This document shows, one piece after another, positions 56,610 through 59,600 of a stretch of DNA of 64,000 bases. The notes under the pieces were generated by a model. The model saw nothing but the letters and a program-made list of their open reading frames with translations. It was not told the origin of the DNA and searched no databases. Source of the DNA: Watersipora subatra. Its lineage: Eukaryota > Bryozoa > Gymnolaemata > Cheilostomatida > Watersiporidae. Numbering within the stretch: position 1 is the first letter of the stretch; every line of letters begins with the position of its first letter. The translations under genes and the position numbers were made by a program. Location of the stretch: NCBI RefSeq assembly GCF_963576615.1, contig NC_088708.1, positions 29,457,191 to 29,521,190 of the forward strand, in the 5' to 3' direction.

Positions 56610-59600
56610 GTAAGTACTTCGCAAGTAATGCACATATAATTCACTTTTTGATAAGAGCATCTATAGTGTACTTAGAAAGTCACCGAAAATTTTAATTTAA
56701 AAGTTATATTGCTGCGTTGTCAAAACATTTCAGCGTTAATAGCCTAGTGTCGATCATCAGCTATTGATAGGAATTTTGCGGTCAGCCGGTCTCAAGAGAC
56801 TGCCTCAGTTTGTTTACGATGCTTAGAGCAAATGTCATCCTGCTTCATCGAAACCTAATTTCACTGAAGAATATTCGCTAATCATGCAGGCTTTGGTATC
56901 AGTGGCTGTTCTAGCATTGATTCTAGAATATTCATCAATATTTTAATCTTACTATTGTTGGGGGACATTCACATACTCATCCATTAGGATATTGTCATGG
57001 AATCGAAAGCTGTCATCCATCTATCTATCCAGAATTGATGCACTTGCCAGTATGGATCGGGCATGCCATGTGTGAGAGTGTCTAATTCCTACACTATTAA
57101 CTAGCTCTGCTAACTGCAATTGTTTGGTTAATAAATGATGAGTGACCTAATCGAAGGTAGCCCTTCTGCTGCCACATCTGACTATTCACAATACCTTACC
57201 TTGGTTCATGCAGACAGTTTCGACAGAGATGGTGGAGAAACAAAAGAGCGTGTTCCCGACACGCTTGACAAAGAATCCGATTCTAGAGGTATTGTTTACT
57301 TCAATATGCTTACTTGTATTAGGATAGGCAGCATGCTATATATGTATATTATTAAGATAGGCAGCATGCTATATATGTATATTATTAGGATAGGCAGCAT
57401 GCTATATATGTATATTATTAGGATAGGCAGCATGCTATATATGTATATTATTAGGATAGGCAGCATGCTATATATGTATATTATTTAGTACATGTAGATC
57501 GAGTAATTTAAATTTTATTTAGTAGGTTTGAGTAAGTTATGCTTTGCTAAGCCTACACTTCCATTTACGTGTTTACAAGGTAACAGAATATTTATTTAGT
57601 TTTTACACACAATTTAGGTTTTTATTACATCCTGTAGTCAGTAAGTTGTATTTCTAATGACTATCTACCTCATATGATAAGACTTCTTAACAAAGCATGT
57701 TTTGAAGTTCTAGTTTAATAAGTATCAATTAAAATTTAAAATGTAGTTTTCTGATTAAAGTAGGCATTGTTCAAACTTTGCTCTATGTGCTACACCATAT
57801 TCACAAAATTCATGACTCTCCTAATAAAGACAACTTGAACAAAGGTTTTTTCTCGCATTATTTGACCTCTGTGATTGAGAAACGTGTTATAATTTTATTG
57901 CACTGCAGAGATAAACGCTTTAAAGTCACTACATCTTACTGCTTTCTGATAGAATGAGTTCCACATATATCGCAAAGTGTTCTATGATAAAGCTAATGTC
58001 TTTGAAGTTCTTGTCTTTAAATATACATAGTTATTGAGGATTATCTTGTCCGTGTTTTGCTAACACGTAAATGAACTTGAGTGATGTTATTGTTTCAACA
58101 ATTTTAGAAGAAAAAGAAAACTGGAATAACTGTGAAAGTCCTGAGCAAGAAGCTTTAGTTACAGAACTGAATAAGGTAAGACATCAGGATAAGATATGTC
58201 ATCAGAATAAGGTAAGACATCAGGATAAGGTAAGACATCAGGATAAGGTAAGATATCAGGATAAGGTAAGATATCAGGATAAAGTAAGACATTCGAATCA
58301 GGTAAGACATTCGAATCAGGTAAGACATTCGAATCAGGTAAGACATTCGATTAAGGTAAGACATTCGATTAAGGTGAGACGTCGGAATAAGGTGAGACGT
58401 CGGAATAAGGTGAGACGTCGGAATAAGGTGAGACGTCGGAATAAGGTGAGACGTCGGAATAAGGTGAGACGTCGGAATAAGGTGAGACGTCGGAATAAGG
58501 TGAGACGTCGGAATAAGGTGACACGTCGGAATAAGGTGAGACGTCGGAATAAGGTGAGACGTCGGAATAAGGTGAGACGTCGGAATAAGGTGAGACGTCG
58601 GTATAAGGTGAGACGTCGGAATAAGGTGAGACGTCGGAATAAGGTGAGACGTCGGAATAAGGTGAGACGTCGGAATAAGGTGAGACGTCGGAATAAGGTG
58701 AGACGTCGGAATAAGGTGAGACGTCGGAATAAGGTGAGACGTCGGTATAAGGTGAGACGTCGGAATAAGGTGAGACGTCGGAATAAGGTGAGACGTCGGA
58801 ATAAGGTGAGACGTCGGAATAAGGTGAGACGTCGGAATAAGGTGAGACGTCGGAATAAGGTGAGACGTCGGAATAAGGTGAGACGTTCGAATAAGGTGAG
58901 ACGTTCGAATAAGGTCGGACGTTCGAATTAGGTCGGACGTTCGAATAAGGTCGGACGTTCGAATAAGGTCGGACGTTCGAATAAGGTCGGACGTTCGAAT
59001 AAGGTCGGACGTTCGAATAAGGTCGGACGTTCGAATAAGGTCGGACGTTCGAATAAGGTCGGACGTTCGAATAAGGTCGGACGTTCGAATAAGGTCGGAC
59101 GTTCGAATAAGGTCGAACGTTCGAATAAGGTCGAACGTTCGAATAAGGTCGAACGTTCGAATAAGGTCGAACGTTCGAATAAGGTCGAACGTTCGAATAT
59201 GGTGAGGCGTTCGAATATGGTGAGGCGTTCGAATATGGTGAGACGTTCGAATATGGTGTAACGTTCGAATATGGTGAGACGTTCGAATATGGTGAGACGT
59301 TCGAATATGGTGAGACGTTCGAATATGGTGAGACGTTCGAATATGGTGAGACGTTCGAATATGGTGAGACGTTCGAATATGGTGAGACGTTCGAATATGG
59401 TGAGACGTTCGAATATGGTGAGACAGTCGATTGGTGGCTAATTGGTGACTTTAGGAATTACATTGACTGCTAGCTAATCATACTTGTAGGAGTAAAATTT
59501 ACATCCGTATAAATGTTACTTACTCGTGAATCTTACTTACGCCTTCAGGAAGAGTGCATGTACACTGACAAAGAATGAAACAGTTTGAAGGAATATTATT

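Follow-up and report, generated by a model that had tools for sequence, protein, structure and literature searches.

Introduction

The closest described counterparts of the locus reported here come from human and amphioxus genes. In human IFI6 (6-16, G1P3), a minisatellite at the exon-2 donor was reportedly described by Turri et al. in 1995, and its unit is 12 bp long and in frame. Two downstream repeat units of IFI6 are reported to serve as donors, giving rise to isoforms (PMC4526556). In amphioxus, the elements known as mirages are minisatellite-like tandem copies of exon-intron boundaries; they are reported from Adh3, the globin genes BflGb6 and BflGb9, troponin C and PGBD5, with splicing described as undisturbed (PMC3087553, PMC3902484). 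According to the same reports, many mirage units repeat the AG/GT splice signals, the units of Adh3 range from 10 to 72 bp, and units are locally homogenised (PMC3087553, PMC3902484). New introns are also reported to arise where AGGT proto-splice sites are duplicated in tandem, which leaves copies with AG|GT at their joints (PMC3087553). Among the literature matches listed, which comprised titles and the starts of abstracts and covered few subscription papers, no donor arrays were found outside these amphioxus and human genes.

Here, we describe a donor array in the bryozoan Watersipora subatra. It lies within a stretch of 64,000 nucleotides, referred to as the window (contig NC_088708.1, positions 29,457,191 to 29,521,190 of the forward strand); positions below are those of the window unless another source is named. 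Judged by its anatomy, the array is assigned to the mirages, and we consider it likely that it is a boundary minisatellite of this kind that is spliced away from its first donor.

The TPD52 gene and its donor array

The host gene is identified by the TPD52 profile PF04201, which five exons joined in frame match with E=6.7e-17 and, when exon 2 is joined through the first donor, with a score of 62.2 bits (gathering cut-off 25). This bears out the original prediction that a true exon of TPD52 lies at the start of the array. All five exons lie on the + strand. Exon 2 (58108..58175, 68 nt, ending ...GAACTGAATAAG) is followed by an intron of 3096 nt and then by exon 3 (61272..61408, acceptor TTTGTAG|ATT), with the profile match continuous across the join, and exon 4 (62605..62694) belongs to the match as well. 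From frame and splice signals we infer exon 1 (57135..57288), which lies outside the profile match, runs from the ATG to the phase-1 donor GAG|GTATTG and joins exon 2 in frame, and exon 5 (63866..63911), which lies outside the scored profile stretch. The gene likely extends beyond the window. The junction of exons 2 and 3 falls after residue 74, within the profile match (residues 64-144) and also within a heptad-spaced stretch, in whose best register 8 of 12 a/d positions are L, I, V or M. Added residues had been expected on the N-terminal side of the TPD52 coiled coil, but the junction is instead inside both of these stretches.

The exon-2 region has one match in its own genome (783,720,542 bases searched), and a second TPD52 gene is found on contig 4. 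In this paralogue, twelve units of a different, 29-bp sequence (L022 1025-1390) form an array some 110 nt upstream of the open frame that matches; the array probably sits in the equivalent intron. A second minisatellite of the TPD52 gene in the window, five units of 33 bp at 57317-57485, begins 29 nt past the end of exon 1 at 57288 and is without a strong donor-like site. Intron 2 also holds a fold-back element (60249-61135) whose inverted 139-nt arms are 90% complementary and spaced 609 nt apart; approximately 100 nt of its arm recurs at 13505-13605.

The donor array consists of 70 head-to-tail units of 18 bp on the + strand at 58170..59429, with zero indels (read directly and recounted), each holding a copy of the exon-2 donor region. 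It had been placed at 58171..59425 with about 70 copies; the count stands, and the bounds are corrected. The first unit, AATAAGGTAAGACATCAG, starts on the final six bases of exon 2 and is laid out as AATAAG|GTAAGACATCAG, that is, 6 exonic and 12 intronic bases on either side of the exon end at 58175. The donor itself is thus part of the repeated unit, as had been claimed, and its GT is retained in 69 of the 70 units, the exception being unit 2 with AT. GTRAG[AG] is retained in 51 units, whereas a literal AAG|GTRAGA or ATG|GTGAGA, previously put at about 50 units, is found in 45 of 70 on recount.

The 19 distinct unit types are arranged in blocks. Units 1-11 (58170..58367) are of the [A/C]AG|GTAAGA type, except for units 2 (AT) and 7 (AAA|GT); units 12-41 (58368..58907) are of the AAG|GTGAGA type, with GTGACA in unit 20. 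The 16 consecutive units 42-57 (58908..59195) have GTCGGA or GTCGAA and are poor donors, and units 58-70 (59196..59429) are of the ATG|GTGAG[AG] type, with unit 61 as an exception. AAGGTRAGA occurs at 35 places in the window, all of them inside the array, compared with 1.25 +/- 1.12 in shuffles. The coding strand of the array is rich in purines, and the array has 138 CpG, with an observed/expected ratio of 2.6 against 0.62 elsewhere.

The reading frame of exon 2 stays open through the array until a TAG at 58929-58931 in unit 43, in agreement with the predicted 42 or so open units, and joining the exons and reading the units bears out that any choice of donor within units 1-42 stays in frame. 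It is important to note, however, that the open frame is no special feature and was rejected as evidence of coding, since a unit that is poor in stops and divisible by three keeps frames open automatically. On the antisense strand, too, one frame runs without a stop through the full 420 codons of the array, and a second stays open for 352.

Elsewhere in the window, an array of 21.5 units of 28 bp (34148-34748; GGTCAAGGTGAGTGG...) has 40 donor-like sites on the + strand. It is pyrimidine-rich on the minus strand and ends 15 nt before a putative minus-strand exon at 33956-34132, for which a clear family match was not found. The idea that it is the donor array of a gene at that place was rejected, because its donor-like strand is antisense to the sole exon that can be inferred there. 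The window also contains, on the minus strand at 8189-12333, a non-LTR retrotransposon that encodes a reverse transcriptase with endonuclease and whose second frame matches a PHD finger weakly.

Growth of the array and tests of constraint

The array begins on a coding exon, its units change gradually from copy to copy, and other such arrays exist in the genome. Unit 3 is identical to unit 1, divergence from unit 1 increases along the array (Spearman 0.82), and the mean number of differences between units rises from 0.71 at lag 1, where neighbours are most alike, to 5.8 at lag 60. This likeness of neighbours, together with the gradient from unit 1, is the mark of repeated local copying of the donor. 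The 18-bp sequence of the exon-2/intron-2 junction of TPD52 would first have been tandemly duplicated and would then have expanded to 70 copies, possibly through slippage or unequal exchange. The first copy would keep the exon end and, as protein homology suggests, be spliced as the normal donor; the later copies would fall within the intron and be removed with it, so that selection would hardly see them.

Tandem arrays are prone to mis-assembly, and one amphioxus globin mirage is reported to have been wrongly assembled (PMC3087553). That the array or its copy number is an artefact of this sort is nevertheless scarcely credible, given the ordered blocks of 19 unit types, the gradient, the lack of indels, the single genomic match of the exon-2 region and the many different arrays of the same kind in the genome.

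Constraint was sought among the base steps between neighbouring units (n=49). Selection on the peptide was not seen, with 5 of the 49 steps synonymous against 26% expected; as the steps are not mutually independent, the conclusion is limited to protein constraint not being seen. Selection for donor retention was likewise not seen among these steps, 28 of 49 falling in donor positions, which make up 9 of the 18 bases of the unit (p=0.39). The latter result bears on whether the array acts as RNA or DNA, for example, by acting as a sink for U1, by enhancing splicing or by preventing premature polyadenylation within intron 2. Strong U1-like sites are dense in it (50 in 1.26 kb, about 40/kb, versus 1.3/kb elsewhere on the same strand), and four AATAAA and one ATTAAA lie downstream of it in intron 2. 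Such a role is still very improbable in our view: the good donor is lost in sixteen consecutive units, conservation of donor positions was not seen, arrays elsewhere in the class vary in size and unit, and U1 is very abundant in nuclei.

Donor-motif arrays across the genome

Contig 1 was surveyed for three motifs in a row, and arrays were counted by eye among the matches listed, a scope that applies to all array counts in this survey. Nine arrays in 9.4 Mb carry the donor motif AAGGTRAG and four in 3.5 Mb carry CAGGTRAG, about one per Mb for each of the two motifs. The single-substitution controls gave 16 arrays in 78.8 Mb (AAGATRAG), 6 in 19.3 Mb (AAGGTRAT) and 4 in 34.7 Mb (AAGCTRAG). Pooled, there are 13 donor arrays in 12.9 Mb against 26 control arrays in 132.8 Mb (ratio 5.1, p=2e-5), with one donor-bearing array, that of U2A', left within the control count. 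Among the matches listed, donor-motif arrays are thus several times denser in this genome than their single-substitution controls.

Raw counts of matching places are misleading because single arrays hold many places. Forward and reversed motifs gave 3368 and 279 places for AAGGTRAG, 1306 and 338 for CAGGTRAG, 2136 and 1705 for AAGATRAG, 5214 and 782 for AAGGTRAT, and 436 and 55 for AAGCTRAG. The control AAGGTRAT thus has more places than AAGGTRAG itself, and a few large arrays dominate the places listed. The reversed motif was rejected as a control, as it does not discriminate, and arrays per Mb with single-substitution motifs were used in its place.

The donor consensus has a T after GTRAG. 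Nine of the 13 donor arrays have T at this position, which was not part of the query, against 3 of the 16 AAGATRAG arrays (p=0.0095), as read by eye with one mixed T/A array scored as T. With AAGCTRAG added (3 of 4 on its own), the controls come to 6 of 20 (p=0.038).

In a set sampled by position, consisting of 200 kb plus the window, an excess of donor arrays was not found: 4 of 32 arrays are donor-bearing, against 1.63 expected from shuffled units, and 1 of 23 in the 200 kb without the window. The 32 arrays correspond to one per 8 kb, a genome so rich in minisatellites that some would land on donors by chance. One 10-kb sample (contig 2:1000001-1010000, L016) is in its entirety a single 83-bp satellite of about 120 copies. 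A bolder proposal is that minisatellites in this genome arise preferentially at 5' splice sites, where active donors, e.g., through transcription-coupled DNA loops or U1-bound nascent RNA, would promote tandem duplication and so account for something on the order of a thousand donor-motif arrays; TPD52 would be the extreme case, with an in-frame ladder of about 40 donors and graded isoforms. We regard this proposal as speculative and on the whole unlikely.

Arrays at other exons

The flanks of all 13 donor-motif arrays and of 13 of the 26 control arrays (10 of 16 AAGATRAG, 3 of 6 AAGGTRAT, 0 of 4 AAGCTRAG) were read about 700 bases upstream, or 1,000 and 1,500 in two cases. Upstream open frames were compared with Pfam for 20 flanks, ten from each group of 13 (L034, L036, L047, L052 and L054 were excluded), and PDB searches were made for three donor flanks (L029, L038, L039) and one control flank (L053). 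Three further arrays begin at the ends of coding exons verified by homology, namely, an exon of DNMT1, one of U2A' and a MAM-domain exon. Assuming one donor per 2-5 kb, 0.08-0.2 chance starts at sense-strand donors would be expected among the 26 arrays.

The DNMT1 array (contig 1:1460390-1461250, minus strand; L029, L037) has six units of 25 bp; in the phase adopted here, each has 17 bases on the exon side and 8 on the intron side. The exon peptide is without a match in Pfam; when the exons are joined through the first donor, the protein aligns gap-free with DNMT1 over 69 residues (E=1.3e-31). Of the five later donors, all but that of unit 4 (units 2, 3, 5 and 6) would shift the frame, which indicates that such arrays can persist without making usable isoforms. 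The MAM-domain array (contig 1:1375600-1375901, L038; E=2.7e-11) has 36-bp units, and its exon-side bases agree only partly with the later ones. The U2A' (SNRPA1) array (contig 1:5104473-5104690, minus strand, L053; E=1.1e-10) has 34-bp units that hold GTAAGT; it was retrieved via a control motif, and the exact exon end is a putative one. U2A' is itself a spliceosome protein.

Of the 13 donor-motif arrays, 11 are without a homology-verified exon; in one of these (L039), an open frame of 67 codons matched nothing, and the other ten have neither a verified exon nor a defensible long open candidate. Longer open frames upstream of donor arrays were considered and rejected, the medians being 34 codons for the 13 donor and 37 for the 13 control arrays (p=0.42). 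Nor did verified exons differ by query: donor motifs led to two among 13 arrays, and control motifs to one among 13. This contrast is blurred by the 5 of 26 control units that themselves hold GTRAG. Regrouping L053, retrieved as a control, gives 3 of 14 against 0 of 12 (p=0.22), but the step is unsound, as it is post hoc and the control units L045, L049 and L052 also hold GTRAG; when these are regrouped as well, the figures become 3 of 17 and 0 of 9, and among the nine L047 is without a usable flank.

Donor choice

Protein homology favours the first donor of the TPD52 array among the three that were tried: the fit to PF04201 is 62.2 bits with donor 1, whereas the two later donors joined, those of units 2 and 8, score 52.6 and 48.1 bits, respectively. 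The suggestion of a neutral minisatellite in which the upstream-most donor wins agrees with the reading favoured here, while its use of donor 1 is drawn from this homology. Predicted U1 binding counts against that reading. After local folding, units 8-10 (CAG|GTAAGA) are the strongest predicted U1 sites of the array, at about -10.2 kcal/mol, and unit 1, at -8.1 to -8.8 kcal/mol, comes no higher than 8th to 12th among the 70 units, depending on which of four folding settings is used. As unit 1 is not the strongest predicted site, its preference as the upstream-most donor would need position, exon definition or timing. The donors of units 1-11 are predicted to be among the most accessible of the array, units 12-39 to be largely base-paired and units 40-41 to be more open.

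These predictions allow for a ladder of donors of the kind described for human IFI6, in which U1 would pick among the early ones, mainly units 1 and 3-11, and a minority or regulated share of TPD52 mRNA would gain 12-60 residues. These residues would form KVRHQD-like repeats inside the coiled coil. Such a ladder is consistent with the superior predicted U1 binding of units 8-10, which holds with good accessibility in all four folding settings, with the in-frame units 1-42 and with the donor of unit 8, which inserts exactly 42 residues and keeps the heptad register. There is precedent in the two downstream units reported as donors in IFI6 (PMC4526556), and TPD52-like proteins are reported to vary by splicing (PMC12896813). 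However, both insertions tried (donors 2 and 8) reduce the fit to PF04201, steps of six residues break the heptad register save in sevens, and codon-level constraint was not seen in the array. In addition, unit lengths that are multiples of three are not clearly enriched among the 13 donor arrays of contig 1 (6 of 13, p=0.38), and amphioxus mirages are reported without disturbance of splicing (PMC3087553, PMC3902484). We therefore hold the ladder to be unlikely, though worth keeping in mind, and prefer the boundary minisatellite spliced from its first donor.

Significance and comparison with known systems

The TPD52 array offers a naturally occurring test of how a 5' splice site is chosen: one intron has dozens of near-identical donors, 42 units are in frame, and stronger and weaker sites form blocks whose order is known. 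The DNMT1 array, with its largely frame-shifting later donors, serves as the contrast case. Should the first donor win in every case, position would outrank strength; otherwise, repeat number could tune gene products. The enrichment of donor motifs in arrays bears on the lengthening of introns and on the birthplaces of minisatellites.

Mirages are characterised by a tandem array of minisatellite size, a unit that spans the boundary, splicing at the original site, length instability (including somatic) and occurrence in several genes. At TPD52, the array is a tandem one of 70 x 18 bp and its unit spans the boundary, and arrays also occur at the DNMT1, U2A' and MAM-domain exons. It resembles the amphioxus mirages in its tandem boundary copies, repeated splice signals and local homogenisation of units, and differs from them in its 70 copies, 18-bp unit and TPD52 host. 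Like the minisatellite of IFI6, it begins at the donor of a coding exon, offers several donors and has an in-frame unit; the downstream units of IFI6 are used in mRNA, whereas those of TPD52 are predicted donors. With intron gain through duplicated AGGT proto-splice sites it shares a tandem layout in which AG|GT stands where the copies join. Unlike intron gain of that type, it seems to enlarge a pre-existing intron, since the open frame of the contig-4 paralogue starts near the same place in PF04201 (position 14), a comparison made on the start of the open frame. Taken together, the TPD52 array is a further case of an already known type of exon-edge repeat.
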